Shown: one piece after another, positions 53,633 through 63,121 of the stretch
Layout: every line of letters starts with the position of its first letter
Numbering within the stretch: position 1 is the first letter of the stretch
From: Lysobacter niastensis
Lineage (GTDB): Bacteria; Pseudomonadota; Gammaproteobacteria; Xanthomonadales; Xanthomonadaceae
Direction: 5' to 3'
Length of the DNA: 64,000 nt
Assembly: GCF_015453285.1 (NCBI RefSeq)
Contig: NZ_JADLZT010000002.1
Location: forward strand, 124,001-188,000
Notes under the pieces: model-generated
What the model saw: the letters and a program-made list of their open reading frames with translations, nothing else
Database searches by the model: none
What the model was told of the DNA's origin: nothing
Translations under genes and position numbers: made by a program

Positions 53633-53718
53633 GGCCCTGAGCGTGCATTTGCCGCGGGTCGAAATACGGGAGTACGTTGGCGGCCACAGCCGGGTGGCTC
53701 CCGGCGCCGGAGCACCGC

Positions 53719-56505
53719 ATGGTGCATCGCGATACCCGAGCGGACGAGGTGCAGCCGCAATGGCTGTGGCAGGCCAGTCCGGACAGCCTGCTGTTCATCG
53801 TCGACGGCAGGATCGCCGACGCCAATGACGCCGCGGCCCGGCTCTTTGGTGCCGCGTCGGGCGCCGCACTGGCCGGGTTTCATATTGCGGATCCGCGGCT
53901 GTCTCCTCCGGCGCAGCCGGATGGCGACGACAGCCACACATTGGCCGACCGTGTCCTGGCACTAGTGCTGGGAACGCCGGATCCGCGGGCGCCAGTTGCC
54001 TTGCCGGCGGCGATGTCCGCACGCGTCGAGGACGGCGCGCTGCGCTTTCATTGGCTGCACCTGCGCGGCGGATCGCAGCCGTTCCTCGCCGAGATCGTGA
54101 TGAAGGCGGTGCAGACGCCGGATCGCGAAGGCGTCCTCGCGGTCGTGCGCGACATCACCGAAAGCCGCCTCGCCGAAGAAGCGCTCAAGGAGAGCGAGGC
54201 CTACAACAAGCTGCTGTTCCAGGATTCGCGCCGCGCAATGGTGGTCCACGATCCGTCGCGCGAAGGCTTCATCGACTGCAACGATGCTGCGATCCGGATC
54301 TACGGCTACACCTGCCGCGAGGAGGTGCTCGGCAAGATGCCGATCGACGTGTCTGCACCGATCCAATACAACGGCGTCGACTCGCGCACGCTGATCGAAC
54401 AGCACGATACGACCGCCCTGTCGGAAGGCGGCGATACCTTCGAGTGGCGGCACCAGCGCCCCGATGGCGAGATCTGGGACGCGCTGGTGCACCTGATGCG
54501 GTTCAATTGGCGCGGCCGCGAGCTGCTGCAGTTCACGCTGGAGGACATCACCGACCGGCGCCGCGCGCAGAAGCGCGTGCTGTTCCACCACAAGGTGGTC
54601 GAGAACGCCGGTCCGATGTTCTGGATCGACCCGCGCGATCGCGCCATCGTCTATGCCAATCCCGCCGCGCTCCACCACCTGAACCTGCCGGAGGAGGCTG
54701 TCGTCGGACACGACATCCTCGAGTTCGATCCGGACTTCCCACCCGAGCGCCTGACGCCGACGGTCGAGCAACTGCGCGACACGCAGCAGCCCCTTACGTT
54801 CGAGACGCGTCACCGGCGCTGCGATGGCAGCCTGCTCGACGTCGAGGTGACCGCATCCCTTGCGGAGGATGAAGAGCGCACGCTCATCGTCACCTCGGTC
54901 AAGGACATCACCGGACGCAAGCGCAGCGAGGCGGCGTTGCGATTGAGCGAAGAGCGCAAGAACCTGGCGATCGAAGGCGGCGACCTGGGAACCTGGCAGT
55001 TCCAGACGGACACGCGCACGCTGATCTGCTCCGACCGGCAGATCGCGATGCTCGGCCTGCCACCGGGCACGCAGCCGACCCTCGGCCTGTTCTACAGCCT
55101 GATCCATCCCGACGATCTCGGCGGCATCCGCGAGGTTATTCGGCAGGCCGCTCCTTCCTATGCCATCGAGTATCGCGTGCAGTGGCCGGACGGCACGCAG
55201 CACTGGCTGGTGACGCGCGGGCGCCCCTCGCATGACGCCGGCGGGAGGACCGTGGCGGTAAACGGCACCACGCAGGACATCACCGAGCTGATCCAGGCAC
55301 GCGAGGCCCTGCAGCAGGCCAAGGCCGACGCCGACGCCGCCAACGCGGCGAAGAGCCAGTTCCTGGCGAACATGAGCCACGAGATCCGCACGCCGATGAA
55401 CGCCATCATGGGCATGCTGCACCTGGCGATGAAGGGCCGCTCCGAGCAGGAGCAGCGCGATTATCTGGGCAAGATCCAGCGCGCGGGCGAGCACCTGCTC
55501 AGCGTGATCAACGACATCCTCGACTTCTCCAGGATCGAGGCGGGCAAGCTGACCGTGGAACGCGCGCCATTCGCGCTGTCGCAACTGCTGGACGACGTCG
55601 CCAACGTGGTCGCCGGCAAGGCGGCAGACAAGGGCCTTGGGCTTTCCTTCGACGTCGCCGCCGATGTCCCGGCCGAGCTGGTCGGCGACCGCCTGCGCCT
55701 GGGCCAGGTGCTGATCAATTTCGCGACCAATGCGGTGAAGTTCACCGAGCGGGGCGAGATCAGCATCGCCGTCGGGACGCGTGCGCAACAAGGCGACGAG
55801 TGGCTGCTGCATTTTTCCGTCCACGACACCGGCATCGGCCTGGACGACGTCCAGATCGGGCAGATCTTCGACTCGTTCGTGCAGGGCGACAGTTCGATGA
55901 CACGGCGTCATGGCGGCACCGGCCTGGGCCTGGCCATCTCCAAGCATCTTGCGCAGCTGATGGGCGGCGAAGTCGGCGTCGACAGTGCACCCGGACAGGG
56001 CAGCACGTTCTGGTTCACCGCACGCGTCAGACGACCGCGAGTTTGGGCGCACCTGGCCGCGATGCCACAGCCGCAACCGCCATCCGCGGAAGCGATCGCG
56101 CGCATCGAAGGCGCGCGCGTGCTGCTGGCGGAGGACAACGTATTCAACCAGGAAGTCGTGCTGGCGTTGCTGGGCGATGCCGGCCTGGTGGTCGAGGTCG
56201 CCGACGACGGCGAAGCCGCATTGCAGATGGCGCGTTCGCGGCACTACGACGCAGTGCTGATGGACATGCGCATGCCGGTCATGGACGGCCTGGCCGTCAC
56301 TCGTGAACTGCGCCGCACAACCGGACTCTCCGCGTTGCCGATCATCGCGCTGACCGCCAACGCCATGGACGAGGATCGCCAGCGTTGCATGGAAGCCGGC
56401 ATGAACGACTTCGTCGCCAAGCCTTTCGATCCCGACGAGTTGTGGCGCGTGCTGCTGAAATGCATCCGCGCAGGCACCGAGCACGCTGGTGGCCGAGACA
56501 CGTGA
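53719..56505 (+). CDS. Multi-PAS hybrid sensor histidine kinase
   Basis: A 928-residue cytosolic signalling kinase without evident transmembrane segments. Several PAS-type sensor domains span about residues 20-530, with repeated [10 protein letters not shown] and [12 protein letters not shown] linkers. The kinase core follows: His554 in [12 protein letters not shown] as phosphorylation site, then [18 protein letters not shown] in the ATPase domain, then a C-terminal receiver with phospho-acceptor Asp849 in [11 protein letters not shown] and conserved Lys near FVAKPFDP. No HPt domain is fused, so the phosphate must pass to a separate protein. Start: ATG at 53719; an upstream TTG at 53677 with a good ribosome site is possible. 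An orphan with no response regulator alongside. Confidence 0.9.
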
Positions 56506-56575
56506 CAGGGCGCTCAGATGCCTAACGGAAGCGGCCGGAACAGCGCCTCGCAGCCCAGACACATCGGAGGCCCTG

Positions 56576-57499
56576 TCAGCCGCCCAGCTCCACCTGCTCG
56601 CACGCCGCGTTTCGGGCGCGCGCCAGCGCCTGTTCGCGCTTCTTCTTCACCAGGAGGGCGTGCATCATTTCCGTGGACAGACCATGCAGCACCAGCCGGA
56701 AACCCGCCCGCAGCGTCGACATGGGAACCAGCGGGTGCCGATTGTTCACAAGCAGCATCGGCGTCGGATCGTTGAGAATCCTGCTTGCGTATATGGCGAT
56801 GGTCTCGTCCACCTGCAACGAGTTGGTGGCTCGCCAGAAATCGTTGTCGGTGAGGAACAACTGATAGACCGGGGTATACAGCTCGATCGCGGTTTGCAGA
56901 TCAATGACGTTGGTCCAGCGGTCGGGCATGGACTGCAGCGGCAATGGTCCGTCGGTGATGGCGGAGAAGTCGGGTGCGACCACAGGTTCGACCTGCCTGC
57001 CTTGGGCGCGCAACTCGCGATTGAGATAGATCACGAAGTTGAAGAGGTTGAGGTCGTGCTTGAGGAACGCATCGTCCTTGATCTGGTCCAGCCCGGTCAG
57101 CCGCATGTCGTTCAGGGGCGGGATCTTCGCGTCGGGGACGTTGGCCGCAACGAAGGCCAGTATCTCGGCCCCAAGGTTGAAGTGGCGCAGGATCAGCCAG
57201 TTCGCATTTGGACTGACGAAATGCTTCAGGCTCCAGGCCAGGAAGCGGTGCAGGACGCGGGATGACGTCACCGACGAAGGCATGATGATCTTCAGCAGTT
57301 GCACCAGCACGATGCAAGTCCGCGCCAGGGGCCGCACCACGGGCAACAGGAACTGCCGCGATCGCGAGGATGAATCCTCGAGCCATGCGCGCTTTACGTC
57401 CTCGTCTATGGGGATGCTGCTGTCCAGATAGATGGCCAGCCACGGATTGGGGTCGCGCGGGTCGTGGGCATCGGCGAGGAAATCGGGAACCTTCTTCAA
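56576..57499 (-). CDS. Unrecognised protein, last gene of the desaturase/KAS-diiron operon
   Basis: A 307-residue protein, not recognised. It is largely helical and soluble apart from a short hydrophobic stretch (TCIVLVQLLKIIM), with many His, Asn and Trp residues (KHFVSPNANWLILRHFN, AFLKHDLNLFNFVIYLN). The start is placed at the TTG at 57499, which forms a 4-nt TTGA overlap with the upstream ketosynthase stop and has GGAG 8 nt upstream; a GTG at 57508 is an alternative. Coupled translation with the ketosynthase fusion makes it part of the same pathway. It ends the operon, 70 nt from the kinase stop, and could be a partner enzyme or a helical oxidase-like subunit, but nothing proves this. Confidence 0.75.
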   Translation of the reverse strand: MKKVPDFLADAHDPRDPNPWLAIYLDSSIPIDEDVKRAWLEDSSSRSRQFLLPVVRPLARTCIVLVQLLKIIMPSSVTSSRVLHRFLAWSLKHFVSPNANWLILRHFNLGAEILAFVAANVPDAKIPPLNDMRLTGLDQIKDDAFLKHDLNLFNFVIYLNRELRAQGRQVEPVVAPDFSAITDGPLPLQSMPDRWTNVIDLQTAIELYTPVYQLFLTDNDFWRATNSLQVDETIAIYASRILNDPTPMLLVNNRHPLVPMSTLRAGFRLVLHGLSTEMMHALLVKKKREQALARARNAACEQVELGG

Positions 57500-59388
57500 A
57501 GCACGCACTCCATCTGCAACGCATAGAGGTCTGCGACGGCTCGGGCCGTGGCCAGTATGTCGGCGCACGCGTCCTCTCCGCCGATCGCCACCACCATTTC
57601 GACCGCCGCCAGCCAGCGCTGCAGATGATGCTCGTCGTTCTCCCCGTGGTAGCGAAGGAAGTTCAGCTGGTGTTCTTCCAGGCCGGCCTGTTGCCGCAGC
57701 ACCGGGAGCAGTGCGGGGATGATTCGTTGTCCGGTGCCCTCGATGATGTAGATGCCACCCAGCAGTCCGACCGGGTTGAGCATGCCGGCGCGAGCATGCA
57801 TGTAGGCGTTCAATGCCTCGCCCCCGGAATTGCGGCGCAGCGCTCCGACGTGGCTGGCGGTGCCGCCTGCATTCCGATAGTCGTCGAACAGTACCCGGTA
57901 ATCGAACTGCTCCTCACCGGCGTGATGGAGGATAAGTTCGCGCAGGCCTGCGTACTGCCCTTCGAGGTTATCCACTGCCCGGCGCATCCACAGCGTCCCC
58001 TCCCTGACCTGGGGCGTCCAGCATTCCATCCAGCGGCGATAGTCGTCGATGGTCAGTGTTCCTGCGGATACCTTCTGCACGAACTTCGTCCGCCACATGC
58101 GCGAGCGGTAGTGGTGCCAGACCTCCGCCAGATCCCGCAGCAGGCGAGCCGTCGGGCCGGTCTCCGTCTGGGCGGCTTCATGGGGCGGCGGCGCTACCCG
58201 CGTTTCGGGCAAACGCAGCGGTTCCGGGTCCGCGTGCGGTGCCGCAGGATCGGTCTCGACCTCGAGCATCAGGAACGACACGGTGAACCGCCCCGACTCC
58301 GGAACGAAGCACAGGATCTTCTGCCCGGGTTCGAGCGTGGTCTCCCTGAGAAAGTCGGCCAGCATGATGAAAATGGACGCGGCGCCAGTATTGCCGCGCT
58401 TCGTCAGGTTGCTGTACCAGCGATCCTGCGGAATCCTCAGTCCCGCCGCTTCCATCAAGTCGTCGACGACGCCGCGGAACTTCTCCGAGGAGTAGTGGCA
58501 CAGGAAATGGTCGACCGAGGCGGGATCGATGCTGCCCGCGTTCACCAGTTGCACGTACTCGTGTATGCCGACATCGAACAGGTTTGGCAGCAGCCTGAGG
58601 TTCTGCCTCAGCAGGAACGCGCCTTCGCGCTCCGCGTCGGCCAGAGAATCGTAGTCCAGGTAGGAGCGCGTGACGTCATCGTCCGAATGACCGATCTGCA
58701 TGCAAACCGGGTAGTCGCCGCTGAAGGACTTCATGTGGACCCACTTCAGGCGCAATGCGAGCCCGTTGGCCCCGGGTTTGTCGCCCAGCAGCATCGCGCC
58801 GGCGCCGTCGGACAGCATCCAGCGCAGGAAATGCGAGTCGAAATCGGCGTCGTAGCCGTTGGGCGCGAAGCGCGACCGTTTGAACATCCGCGAAGGAAAC
58901 TCACTGGTCGCCACAAGCGCCTTGCGGTGGTGCCCCAATGCGACGGCCGCGGCAGCATGCTTGAGCGCGGTCACGCCAGCGGCGCACACGCCCTGATGGC
59001 TGCTGGTTTCCATGGGCTGCGCCGCCAGCTCCCCCTGCAGCATGTTGGCGAAACCGGGCATGCCGACGTCGCCGCCGGATGTGCCGGTGCACAGCATGGA
59101 GACTTCTCCCAGGCCTATGCCTGCCCTGTCCAGGCAATCGCGAACCGCGTGGGCCGCCATCGCCGAGGAGGAATGCCGGGTCTGGCCCTGCTCGTCGATG
59201 GCGTAATGCCGTGTCTGGATTCCGTTATCGCCCAACACACGGGCCTTGATCCTCGCCGACTGCCTGTTGAGTGGTGCGATGTAATCGTCGATGCGCTCGT
59301 TTCCGACCGGCGCGCCGGGCAGGAAAGCGCCAAGGCCAAGCAGGTAGACATTGTCGTACTCGACGGGCTTGCAGAAGTCGTTGTTCAC
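57496..59388 (-). CDS. KAS III-type ketosynthase fused to a haem-oxygenase-like diiron (HDO) domain
   Basis: A 630-residue fusion. Residues about 12-380 form a KAS III-type (DarB/StlD-like) ketosynthase with intact Cys135 in QGVCAAG, His298 in FLCHYSS and Asn333 in KRGNTGAAS. A Pro-rich linker leads to a second domain (about 415-625) of the iron-containing redox/haem-oxygenase-like diiron type: candidate ligands are Glu484, a His-Glu group in LHHAGEEQF, Glu550 in IIEGTG, and His581, Asp585 and His588 in YHGENDEHH. This fits oxidases such as the fatty-acid-decarboxylating UndA group, but the substrate is unknown. The GTG start at 59388 overlaps the desaturase stop in GTGA. Confidence 0.85.
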   Translation of the reverse strand: MNNDFCKPVEYDNVYLLGLGAFLPGAPVGNERIDDYIAPLNRQSARIKARVLGDNGIQTRHYAIDEQGQTRHSSSAMAAHAVRDCLDRAGIGLGEVSMLCTGTSGGDVGMPGFANMLQGELAAQPMETSSHQGVCAAGVTALKHAAAAVALGHHRKALVATSEFPSRMFKRSRFAPNGYDADFDSHFLRWMLSDGAGAMLLGDKPGANGLALRLKWVHMKSFSGDYPVCMQIGHSDDDVTRSYLDYDSLADAEREGAFLLRQNLRLLPNLFDVGIHEYVQLVNAGSIDPASVDHFLCHYSSEKFRGVVDDLMEAAGLRIPQDRWYSNLTKRGNTGAASIFIMLADFLRETTLEPGQKILCFVPESGRFTVSFLMLEVETDPAAPHADPEPLRLPETRVAPPPHEAAQTETGPTARLLRDLAEVWHHYRSRMWRTKFVQKVSAGTLTIDDYRRWMECWTPQVREGTLWMRRAVDNLEGQYAGLRELILHHAGEEQFDYRVLFDDYRNAGGTASHVGALRRNSGGEALNAYMHARAGMLNPVGLLGGIYIIEGTGQRIIPALLPVLRQQAGLEEHQLNFLRYHGENDEHHLQRWLAAVEMVVAIGGEDACADILATARAVADLYALQMECVL

Positions 59389-60254
59389 GAATCGGAATCC
59401 AGGTTGGCCGGTTCTGTTGGTTGGCTGCGGAATCGGCGGGCGACCAGCGAAAGAAGAAAGACGCGAATCAGGTACCAGGCAAAGCTTGGCTCGTTCAGGG
59501 CGGGCGACATTCTCGACACAAGCGACGCATGGACCGCCGGAAGCTCGCTCCAGTGCACGTCTGGCGAGTGGTGATGCGCGGTGTGGTAGCCGATGTTGAA
59601 GAAGAGAGGATTGATCAGGCCGAGGAAGTTTCGCGAGTGGTCGAACTCGGAATCGCCGCGCGCGTGTGCGTGCTGCAGGTAGTTGGAGGCCAGGAGCCAG
59701 AACATGGCGGCGAGCTGCGGGAAGAGCACGACGTACAGCGCCGCCTTCCAATCGATAACCAGGGCCAGCACGTCGATGCCGACCAGGAGAGCGTAATGGG
59801 CGACGATGCAGGCGAAATCACGCGGATCGTTCCGGAACGATGCCATTACGCGAGCCGCGATGTGGGGACGCGCGGCAATGGCGAACTCGATGGGATGGAT
59901 CAACAGCCCCCACAGGTTGTTTCCGGCGCGAAAACGATCGGTCCTGGTCACGTCGTCAGGGCCGTTGTGGTAACGATGGTGGTTGTCGACATGCATCGTC
60001 TGGAACACGTAACCGGGGTGCCCCTGGAAGAGCGTGAACCACACGTCGGTCGCCGCGTTCAGGGCGCGCATTCGCCAGAGCGGGCGATGGGCATGGTTGT
60101 GATGCATCACGCTCACCGTCAAGGACAGCAGCAGGCTCAGGACGAAGAGCCATGGATGGAATGCGCCCAGCGTCCAGTGCGCAACGGCAACCATCGTCAC
60201 CAACCCCATGCCGGCCAGGGTTCGCATGTCCGCGGGATGCGCGAGCCAGGTCAC
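59385..60254 (-). CDS. Membrane fatty-acid desaturase
   Basis: A 289-residue integral membrane desaturase of the FA_desaturase family. The three His boxes are present: HHNHAHR, HVDNHHRYH and GYHTAHHH, and four to five hydrophobic segments surround them. The enzyme should use iron and oxygen to introduce a double bond or hydroxyl group in an acyl chain. It is coupled by a 4-nt overlap both to the upstream desaturase and to the downstream ketosynthase fusion. Substrate position cannot be inferred. Confidence 0.9.
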   Translation of the reverse strand: MTWLAHPADMRTLAGMGLVTMVAVAHWTLGAFHPWLFVLSLLLSLTVSVMHHNHAHRPLWRMRALNAATDVWFTLFQGHPGYVFQTMHVDNHHRYHNGPDDVTRTDRFRAGNNLWGLLIHPIEFAIAARPHIAARVMASFRNDPRDFACIVAHYALLVGIDVLALVIDWKAALYVVLFPQLAAMFWLLASNYLQHAHARGDSEFDHSRNFLGLINPLFFNIGYHTAHHHSPDVHWSELPAVHASLVSRMSPALNEPSFAWYLIRVFLLSLVARRFRSQPTEPANLDSDS

Positions 60255-61231
60255 CGTCTTGCCGCCTCCCTGGCCACTCTATGCAGCGACGCCTGCACCT
60301 CGATCAATGCGTTGATCAGTCCGGTGCTGCGGTACGGGATGCCGGCCGCCCGGCATTCGCGCTCGATGGCGGGCTGCATGGCACGCACGGCAGACCGGTC
60401 CAGCGCCGGGTAGAGGTGGTGCTCGATCTGCAGGTTGAGCCCACCCAGCAGGTAAGCACCCACTCGATTGGTACGGATGTTACGGGTGTGCGCGATCTGC
60501 CACGCCCTGCCGGCTCGGGACTCGGACGCCAGCGGCATTCCCAGATGGTTGGTGCTGAAAGCCAAGCCCATGTAGAGCCCGGACAATGCCTGGCCCGCCG
60601 CGATGAACCAGACGGCCTGGGCGCCCAGCACCTCCCACGCCGCTGCCCAGGTAAGCACGTGATGCAGACACAACGTCAGCACTTCGGGGACGCGCTGCCG
60701 CCACGGCAGGCGCACGGCAGCCAGCATGCCGAGCCATTGGAAGTAGATACGGGCGAACGCGGTGACCGGCCAGAACAGCCATGCCTGGCACGCGACGAAC
60801 CATCGCTGCGGGCCTACCAGCGCACGCGCGGTGTCGCGATCGTAGGCGAACAGGGAGTACAGGTCCGGATCGCTGCCCGCGATGTGCGTATGCCGGTGGT
60901 GGCGATGGTGCTTTTGTCGCCACCACCTCAGCGAAACGCCCAGCAGGAGGTTCCAGCACAACGATCCGACAGTGCCGCGCCAATGGCGCGGCAGTGGCAC
61001 CTGCCCATGTTCGAAGTCATGACCGAGGAAGCCGATCTGTACCGAGGCAAAGGCGTATACCGCGGCAGCGGTTAGCCACCAGACGGCATTCTCGAACAGA
61101 CCGGCCAGACCGATCGACAGGAACAGCAGGCCGGCATGGGCCAGCAGCAGGATCGACCACTGCACGGCTTGGCGATCGGGTCGCCCGGACTTGTGCGACC
61201 CAGCCTGCGTCGTCGCCTCGTCGCACTCCAT
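60251..61231 (-). CDS. Membrane fatty-acid desaturase (front-end-like)
   Basis: A 326-residue membrane desaturase and first gene of the operon. Histidine boxes: HDFEH, KHHRHHRHTH and QIEHHLYP; the QxxHH form of the third box resembles front-end or acyl-lipid desaturases, though no cytochrome b5 domain is fused. Two pairs of hydrophobic helices flank the boxes. It is only distantly like the next desaturase, so the two likely act at different positions. Its stop overlaps the next start by 4 nt (ATGA). The N-terminus contains a short charged extension before the first helix. Confidence 0.9.
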   Translation of the reverse strand: MECDEATTQAGSHKSGRPDRQAVQWSILLLAHAGLLFLSIGLAGLFENAVWWLTAAAVYAFASVQIGFLGHDFEHGQVPLPRHWRGTVGSLCWNLLLGVSLRWWRQKHHRHHRHTHIAGSDPDLYSLFAYDRDTARALVGPQRWFVACQAWLFWPVTAFARIYFQWLGMLAAVRLPWRQRVPEVLTLCLHHVLTWAAAWEVLGAQAVWFIAAGQALSGLYMGLAFSTNHLGMPLASESRAGRAWQIAHTRNIRTNRVGAYLLGGLNLQIEHHLYPALDRSAVRAMQPAIERECRAAGIPYRSTGLINALIEVQASLHRVAREAARR

Positions 61232-61589
61232 GCGGTTGTCGCCCCATCCATGATCGCCGCGAGCTTACGCAATGGCTTCGCCGTAGAGGAAGAGGAAGCC
61301 TGCCACGTCTCGAATCATGGCGCGTGGGAGGCGTGGTTGACAGCAGAGCGCGACGTGCCCGTGGATACACGGGGGGACCCGCACGACGCATCCGAGCACT
61401 GCGGCCCTCAGCTACCTGCAAAGCGCCTGGGCGGTGATGAACCGCGACCGGACCATGCCGATTCACAATAGTTCCTGTACTGAGCGGTTCAGACTTCAGG
61501 TTAAATTTGGGTTAGCTCCGGATACTGGCCTCCACCGAGCGGCACTCCCCCGAGCCGCCGGAACAAAAAACCAAGAGGCCAAGAACCTT
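61232..61589. other. Intergenic region between the desaturase operon and the Ax21 genes
   Basis: This 358-nt spacer is the divergent promoter region for the desaturase operon (left) and the first Ax21-family gene (right). Its right third (about 61480-61590) is AT-richer than the rest and includes TTAAATTTGGGTTAG and an AAGAGG before the Ax21 start. A TTGACA sits near 61338. I see no gene, hairpin or repeat in it, and no assured promoter. Confidence 0.5.
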
Positions 61590-62216
61590 ATGAAGCGCTT
61601 CCCCGTTCGTTCCACGCTTGCTGCCCTGACCCTGCTTGCCGCCCTGCCGTTCGCCGCCTCCGCGGCCGAGGGCGTGTCCTACACCTACGTCGAAGGCGGC
61701 TACGCGGCCACCAACCTCGACGGCGGCGCCGACGCCGACGGCTGGACGATTGGCGGCTCCGGTGCGATCGCGCCGAACTTCCACGTCTTCGGCAGCTACA
61801 CCGGCCAGGAAGTCGATGGTTTCGCGACCCCGTTCGGCCGTGCCAACGGCTATGACGTCGACCAGTGGCGCCTGGGCCTGGGCTACAACCACGAACTGAA
61901 CTCGCAGGTCGACCTGCTGACGCGCGTCGCCTACGAGAAGTTCGAATCCGATGCTTTCTCTGTCGGCAACGAGTTCTTCGCTGGCGAAGACGTCGATGGC
62001 TGGAGCGTCGAGGCCGGCGTGCGCGCTGCGCTCACCCCGAACTTCGAGGGCTACGCCCTGGCCGGTTACGAGGACTACGACCACGGCATCGACGGCGAGT
62101 TTTACGGCCGCCTCGGCGCGCAGGTGAAGTTCAACCAGACCTGGGGCATCTCCGGCGACGTCAAGTTCGTCGACAGCGATACCCAGTACTTCATCGGTCC
62201 GCGCGTCAGCTTCTGA
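61590..62216 (+). CDS. Ax21-family outer-membrane protein, copy 1
   Basis: A 208-residue outer-membrane barrel protein of the Ax21 family known from Xanthomonas. Signal peptide MKRFPVRSTLAALTLLAALPFAASA; then the characteristic YTYVEGGYAATNLDGG segment, GSGAIAPNFHVFGSY, and the C-terminal QVKFNQTWGISGDVKF. It ends in the aromatic-F motif (VSF) needed for outer-membrane insertion. Earlier claims that Ax21 is a secreted quorum signal or immune elicitor were retracted, so I make no signalling claim. The gene has its own terminator and is followed 199 nt later by a paralogue. Confidence 0.88.
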   Translation: MKRFPVRSTLAALTLLAALPFAASAAEGVSYTYVEGGYAATNLDGGADADGWTIGGSGAIAPNFHVFGSYTGQEVDGFATPFGRANGYDVDQWRLGLGYNHELNSQVDLLTRVAYEKFESDAFSVGNEFFAGEDVDGWSVEAGVRAALTPNFEGYALAGYEDYDHGIDGEFYGRLGAQVKFNQTWGISGDVKFVDSDTQYFIGPRVSF

Positions 62217-62264
62217 TACGCACCGACGCTTCGCGATTTCTCTCTCTCCCCCGAATCGCGATGC

Positions 62265-62295
62265 AGAGCCCGGCTTCGGCCGGGCTCTTTTTTTT
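62265..62295. terminator. Strong terminator after Ax21 copy 1
   Basis: Perfect 10-bp stem AGAGCCCGGC/GCCGGGCTCT with a TTCG tetraloop, followed by eight T. Textbook rho-independent terminator on the plus strand. Confidence 0.95.
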
Positions 62296-62414
62296 GTACC
62301 GATACCGCAGACGGCATGCCGCCGATTGATCCAGAATGGGCGCGCCGGCCTTGCCGCCGGCCGCCGCTGCAGCGGATCGCGCACGGCGCGCCACCACAGA
62401 ATCCAGGGGACACG

Positions 62415-63053
62415 ATGAAGAAGCACCTTGCGCTGGCCGTCGCGCTGGCAGTCGCACCGTTTGCCGTGTACGCCGACGAGATCAGCTACACCTACGTCGA
62501 AGGCGGCTACGCGCAGCTGAACCAGGACGCTCCGCTGATCGAGAATGGCGTCGAACTCGACGACATCGAGGCGGCGGGCTTCTTCATCGGCGGATCGGCC
62601 GCGGTGAGCGACGACTTCCACGTGTTCGGCGGCTACCGCAGCGGCAACGACGACGTGCGCGTCACCGTGTTCGGCGTGGACGCCGGCGACATCGATACCG
62701 ACCTGAGCCAGTTCAACATCGGCTTCGGTTACCACCACAGCATCAGCGACCGCACCGACCTGGTGACCGAGCTGAGCTACATCAGCACCGAGGTCGATGC
62801 CGAAGGCGGCGGTGAAAGCAGCAGCAGCGACGGCGACGACGTCCGCGTCTCGGTTGGCGTTCGCCACATGATGGCCGACAGCTTCGAAGGCTGGATCAAG
62901 GGCCATTACAGCGACGGCGATTTCTACGACGGCACCTTCAGCGCCAGCCTCGGTGGCCAGTTCAAGTTCAACCCGACCTGGGGCGTCGTCGGTGAGCTGG
63001 AGTTCGGCGACGACACGTCGATTTTCACGATCGGCGCGCGCGCGAGCTTCTGA
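62415..63053 (+). CDS. Ax21-family outer-membrane protein, copy 2
   Basis: A 212-residue paralogue of the previous gene with the same YTYVEGGYAQLN and GGSAAVSDDFHVFGGYR segments, a signal peptide (MKKHLALAVALAVAPFAVYA) and a terminal barrel Phe (ARASF). A Glu/Gly/Ser-rich insert (AEGGGESSSSDGDD) in one loop is absent from copy 1, so the extracellular loops have diverged. Start has AGGGGA. Ends with its own terminator. Confidence 0.86.
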   Translation: MKKHLALAVALAVAPFAVYADEISYTYVEGGYAQLNQDAPLIENGVELDDIEAAGFFIGGSAAVSDDFHVFGGYRSGNDDVRVTVFGVDAGDIDTDLSQFNIGFGYHHSISDRTDLVTELSYISTEVDAEGGGESSSSDGDDVRVSVGVRHMMADSFEGWIKGHYSDGDFYDGTFSASLGGQFKFNPTWGVVGELEFGDDTSIFTIGARASF

Positions 63054-63068
63054 GCGACGCGGGCAAGT

Positions 63069-63102
63069 AAAAAAAAGCCCGGCAAATGCCGGGCTTTTTT
63101 TT
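63069..63102. terminator. Bidirectional terminator between Ax21 copy 2 and gpsA
   Basis: Eight A, stem GCCCGGC/GCCGGGC with an AAAT loop, then eight T: it terminates the Ax21 gene on the plus strand and gpsA on the minus strand. Confidence 0.93.
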
Positions 63103-63121
63103 GTGGCCAGATGCGGCCGGA

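Follow-up and report, generated by a model that had tools for sequence, protein, structure and literature searches.

Closest described systems

Biosynthesis of dialkylresorcinols places a ketosynthase (KS) next to an oxidising partner: DarB is described as the cyclase, its partner DarA as the aromatase (PMC3949708), and cyclohexanediones are intermediates of the route (PMC4414361). A separate group of oxidases, the haem-oxygenase-like dimetal (HDO) enzymes, includes UndA, SznF, BesC, PolF and MboA. The His/carboxylate ligand sets named for HDO enzymes are 3H/3C and 3H/4C, together with a mononuclear deviation (PMC13108848). Elements of both groups meet in an operon of Lysobacter niastensis, located in the 64,000-nucleotide stretch analysed here and called the window (contig NZ_JADLZT010000002.1, positions 124,001 to 188,000). 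One of its four genes encodes a DarB/StlD-like KS fused to an HDO domain, and the next encodes a protein of the family DUF6999. KS, HDO and DUF6999, fused or split, are the defining set of the module, usually with a fatty-acid hydroxylase and one desaturase. The enzyme families are known; the combination appears undescribed.

The module shares with DarAB the neighbouring KS and oxidising partner. It differs in that the oxidase is an HDO, fused or adjacent, that no DarA- or DarH-like gene lies near, that DUF6999 is present as a rule, and that the partners are membrane desaturases or hydroxylases. With the HDO enzymes named above, the fusion protein has in common a PF14518 match, E550 and the motif H581-x3-D585-x2-H588; it differs from them in its fusion to a KS and in carrying E-x2-D, versus E-x2-H, in the first helix. 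An earlier note, written from the sequence alone, knew of no described pathway with such a set, and none was found in the open-access PMC literature. Among the matches listed there, no description of a KS-HDO-DUF6999 set was found, nor was any paper on DUF6999, and the words ketosynthase, fused and fusion do not occur in the main text of a 2026 HDO review. The fusion is nevertheless common: it was confirmed in 307 stretches of one genome set, yet no product was found for it. The module ties DUF6999, a domain without assigned function, to named chemistry, and presents an odd-ligand HDO for which the fusion points to the partner enzyme and hence to the likely substrate.

Organization of the operon

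The operon comprises the following genes and domains:

60251..61231, minus strand: F, FA_desaturase (PF00487) with His boxes HDFEH, HHRHH and QIEHH (third)
59385..60254, minus strand: D, second FA_desaturase (PF00487) with boxes HHNHAH, HVDNHH and HTAHH; overlaps F by four bases (GTGA)
57496..59388, minus strand: K, ketosynthase III-HDO fusion of 630 aa; overlaps D by four bases (GTGA)
58255..59355, minus strand: ketosynthase domain of K, residues 12-378; triad C135-H298-N333; nearest solved structure StlD
57499..58176, minus strand: HDO domain of K, residues 405-630
56576..57499, minus strand: U, DUF6999 (PF22523); TTG start; overlaps K by four bases (TTGA); helical model

The minus-strand quartet proposed in the earlier note (56576..61231) is exact in coordinates, strand and overlaps. 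The genes run 5' to 3' in the order F, D, K, U, and since the junctions F/D, D/K and K/U read GTGA, GTGA and TTGA, each overlap is four bases; D, K and U start with GTG, GTG and TTG, respectively. Matches to PF00487 (E 2.6e-27 for F, 3.6e-23 for D) and the His boxes of both proteins bear out the two membrane desaturases. F occupies the slot held by a fatty-acid hydroxylase (PF04116, hereafter SD) in most relatives. Profile searches of the window's genome gave five PF00487 matches and no PF04116 match.

Conservation of the KS-HDO-DUF6999 core

At E<=1e-60, the fusion occurs in eight of 99 genomes, one of them that of the window; the eight include three of the 12 members of the window's genus (G000, G007, G009). 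Scanning genome contigs yielded 397 candidate stretches, of which 307 were confirmed and the best 80 kept. With the window and seven relatives these make up a survey of 88 loci that leans to Variovorax and Achromobacter; the genera carrying the fusion also include Collimonas and Lysobacter. Gene order, determined by tblastn on contigs some of which end close to K, is SD-D-K-U in 68 loci, SD-K-U in six, K-U in five and K-U with SD downstream in three. The rarer orders are D-K-U and F-D-K-U (two each), SD-D-K (one, at a contig end) and D-K-U with SD downstream (one). K and U are adjacent in 87 of the 88 loci, which is an association beyond chance; SD is found in 79, D in 74 and F in two, the window and a Ramlibacter. 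The four-gene set F-D-K-U, taken in the earlier note as a unit, therefore recurs in only 2/88 loci. Nor do the desaturases define the system: 14 loci (six SD-K-U, five K-U, three K-U with SD downstream) lack a match to either beside the fusion, so that they look accessory.

Fused and split forms are equivalent. KS, HDO and DUF6999 are consecutive separate genes in L106, L109, L110 and L147 (Pseudoalteromonas sp. THAF3), and because these four loci carry KS and HDO as separate neighbours before DUF6999, the three proteins are identified as the core. In a phylum-wide sample, DUF6999 was found in 9 of 398 genomes, with KS and HDO beside it in all nine. In a class-wide sample it was found in six of 229 genomes, three with the fusion and one with the split form (G174). 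At 1e-40, a KS match was found in 15 genomes of the same sample; 11 of them match the KS part only and have no DUF6999; loci were inspected for five of these 11. A control genome, Caulobacter vibrioides, gave profile matches to PF22523 and PF14518.

Several loci show further features. L108 (G149) seems to hold the KS end and DUF6999 in short separate pieces and looks broken, like a decaying locus; in L107 (G171), the DUF6999 gene has no adjacent KS or HDO, and transposase-like genes lie alongside (by eye). Directly before the split genes of L147 (8388-8945) and L110 (10441-11004) lies a gene for a membrane-like protein of 185-187 aa that carries HxxxxH and HxH motifs but matches no Pfam family, in the slot that the hydroxylase holds elsewhere.

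The ketosynthase and its kinship to DarB

The KS domain is intact, as the earlier note had claimed: C, H and N lie at 135, 298 and 333 within the motifs of StlD, and the triad is invariant in an eight-row alignment. Its assignment to the DarB/StlD kind also holds, the best NCBIfam match of K, and the top one among KS III models, being the StlD/DarB model PRK06816 (344.7 bits, E 6.7e-103, full length). As this falls short of the 450-bit cut-off, K is a relative of the StlD/DarB family and not a filed member. Besides the KS family and the triad, it shares 35-40% identity with the KS of five DarB-like loci (L116-L120). OleA has the same fold, and joining two acyl chains is a possible shared job, but identity in structure alignments is ~20% and OleA is not the nearest KS III kin. 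In a KS tree that includes L012 and L147, 39 fused proteins lie on one side of a branch (100/100) and the five DarB proteins on another (100/99). The four split KS fall between the two groups, one nearer DarB, although the long branches of L106 and L109 may be misplaced.

The five DarB-like loci provide the contrast in gene content. Immediately upstream of the KS, each encodes a protein of 304-342 residues compatible with DarA, and a DarH-like gene was recognized by eye downstream in L116, L119 and L120; that of L119, the only one scanned, is named DarH by NCBIfam. None of the five shows a DUF6999 match. Conversely, tblastn with four of these DarA proteins and the DarH of L119 as queries found no match near 95 loci of varied length (the 88 together with L106-L111 and L115), and a DarA profile found none in the window's genome. 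Given a KS that is kin to DarB and no DarA near the module, the HDO stands at DarA's place, which suggests that a dialkylresorcinol-like route has evolved with an iron oxidase replacing the usual aromatase.

The HDO domain and its putative metal site

The earlier note had described a haem-oxygenase-like diiron domain joined to the KS. The HDO-like domain is borne out: K exceeds the PF14518 gathering score (38.1 versus 28.9 bits), with a match that spans only profile positions 79-176 of 177, and the HDO domain of L056 matches positions 3-177. Searched with a profile built from 70 members, the PDB gives one relative that has a haem-oxygenase-like fold, 3dde (E 9.3e-8); four other PDB rows (E 0.7-0.81) are unrelated. 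The diiron part needs qualification, as the putative metal site is non-canonical. Among 86 aligned fusions (two of the 88 K proteins were dropped), H489, E493, D496, E550, H581, D585 and H588 are invariant, and the usual first-helix His is Asp in all 86 and in all four split HDOs, giving E-x2-D and not E-x2-H. At the position of E493-x2-D496, 3dde and four stand-alone PF14518 proteins have E-x2-H. These four (L123, L124, L125 and L127) are the only ones of 18 stand-alone rows that align well through the first helix. L129, L130, L132, L133, L135, L136 and L140 carry an insert there, with a wider E-to-H spacing; seven of the 18 rows were left out of the comparison. The proteins of L123-L125 were found in relatives from the window's order.

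Because Asp replaces the first-helix His, the predicted ligand set of K is likely two His and four carboxylates, unless H489 joins it; H489 might substitute for the lost His. Ferritin-like diiron proteins are known to use two His and four carboxylates, whereas section 4 of the HDO review does not name this set for HDO enzymes (PMC13108848).

The DUF6999 protein

The fourth protein, which the earlier note could not recognize, can be named: U is a full-length member of DUF6999 (PF22523; E 1.5e-125, 418 bits versus a gathering score of 27, profile positions 1-275 of 275). Pfam assigns this family no function, so that part of the description stands; the linkage to KS and HDO is added here. D26, R48, R105, H106, N120, H148, D149, D200, D231 and H272 are invariant in 66 sequences. 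The family yields a confident structure model, without a clear match in the PDB, in which the invariant His and Asp residues are spread over four helices.

Proposed pathway and alternatives

We infer both the reactions and the product. The proposal, to which we give an even chance, is an O2-dependent lipid pathway around the DarB/StlD-like KS, HDO and DUF6999 core, in which a DarB-style condensation would precede oxidation by the HDO. The KS would join two fatty-acid-derived thioesters as DarB does, yielding a beta-dicarbonyl lipid, 1,3-cyclohexanedione-like or otherwise. On the same polypeptide, the HDO would oxidise this product by desaturation/aromatisation or hydroxylation, replacing DarA. 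The membrane diiron enzymes, two desaturases here and mostly a hydroxylase and a desaturase elsewhere, would modify the alkyl chains, and DUF6999 may contribute another step, possibly acting as a metal enzyme with a new fold. The modified acyl metabolite of the earlier note agrees with the lipid/acyl gene set; the UndA-like decarboxylation to a terminal alkene that it also considered finds no specific support. A bolder version, rather unlikely in our estimate, would be a new oxidative ring-forming pathway in which the KS hands a 1,3-dione to a fused HDO with two His and four carboxylates and DUF6999 serves as another soluble metal enzyme, with a fold of its own that is new (H106, H148/D149, D231, H272), giving a new lipid class in many Beta- and Gammaproteobacteria.

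Several results weigh against the proposed pathway. The KS lies under the NCBIfam cut-offs for both the StlD/DarB family and DarB, and may therefore make something other than a cyclohexanedione. The ligands predicted for the metal site of the HDO differ from the described sets, and an altered or inactive site is possible. The split HDO of L147 has no PF14518 match at E<=1 and was placed by its 63% identity to the HDO of L110, which does match. Two of the six DUF6999 genomes in the class sample (G149, G171) lack an intact neighbouring KS-HDO. The DarA profile has a match in one of 18 module genomes (G688), elsewhere in that genome, and its positive controls, G252 and G259, are weak because the profile was built with proteins of these two genomes. 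Finally, the window operon contains no acyl carrier protein, ligase or transporter gene.

A plain dialkylresorcinol route, with the HDO as a DarA analogue and an end product that is an ordinary 2,5-dialkylresorcinol apart from its modified chains, is possible though doubtful. It is consistent with the kinship of the KS to DarB, with the presence of DarA in only 1/18 module genomes and with a precedent for desaturation among HDOs (PMC13108848), although the reactions given in section 4 of that review do not include aromatisation by an HDO. DUF6999 is present almost as regularly as the HDO and has no match in the five DarB-like loci, and an extra step is therefore expected. If the KS instead followed OleA and made a long beta-keto acid, the HDO could cleave or decarboxylate it to an alkene, ketone or aldehyde; such a hydrocarbon or ketone route is improbable, as the StlD/DarB models score far higher than other KS III models.

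Equally improbable is membrane-lipid remodelling, in which the enzymes would modify acyl chains taken from or returned to phospholipid. It draws on MFS-PlsC genes (acyl-ACP:phospholipid acyltransferase type), which directly follow U in L023 (with a four-base overlap) and L109, flank K-U on both sides in L051 and lie ~3 kb downstream in L030, L041, L045, L054 and L077; L109 and L051 also have an AMP-ligase. This linkage hints at exchange of acyl chains with phospholipid, but it is seen in 8 of the 95 loci, the window not among them, and in the five ~3-kb loci, three of which are Iodobacter, unrelated genes intervene. The substitution of Asp for the first-helix His in 86/86 fusions and 4/4 split forms would also fit a catalytically dead HDO, attached to the KS for structural reasons or to hold substrate. 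This is very unlikely: a dead domain would drift, and E493, E550, H581, D585 and H588, together with H489 and D496, are invariant in the 86 fusions.

Origin of the operon and neighbouring genes

The operon lies in a variable interval:

53633..63121, no strand: variable trmL-gpsA interval housing the operon; other genes occupy it in the four congeners examined

The operon likely arrived horizontally. In G003, G006, G008 and G010, the corresponding interval shows no match to any of K, U, D and F. In the KS tree, Ramlibacter and an Oxalobacteraceae genome share a group with the KS of the window (96/95), and the KS of its two congeners stand side by side within a clade that other Lysobacteraceae make up (100/99); the window fusion is 57% identical to the congeners' fusions. 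GC content is 62-66% across the operon in 1-kb steps versus 65-71% around it.

Among genes near other loci, a Cas1-like gene beside L106 and ABC-transporter-like matches were judged by eye to be unrelated. In L010 (10600-12072; G043), the opposite strand carries a wax ester synthase/DGAT gene 1 kb downstream of K-U. By eye, the congeners' trmL-gpsA interval holds fimbria-like or autotransporter-like genes, sensor kinases and shared small outer-membrane-protein-like genes.

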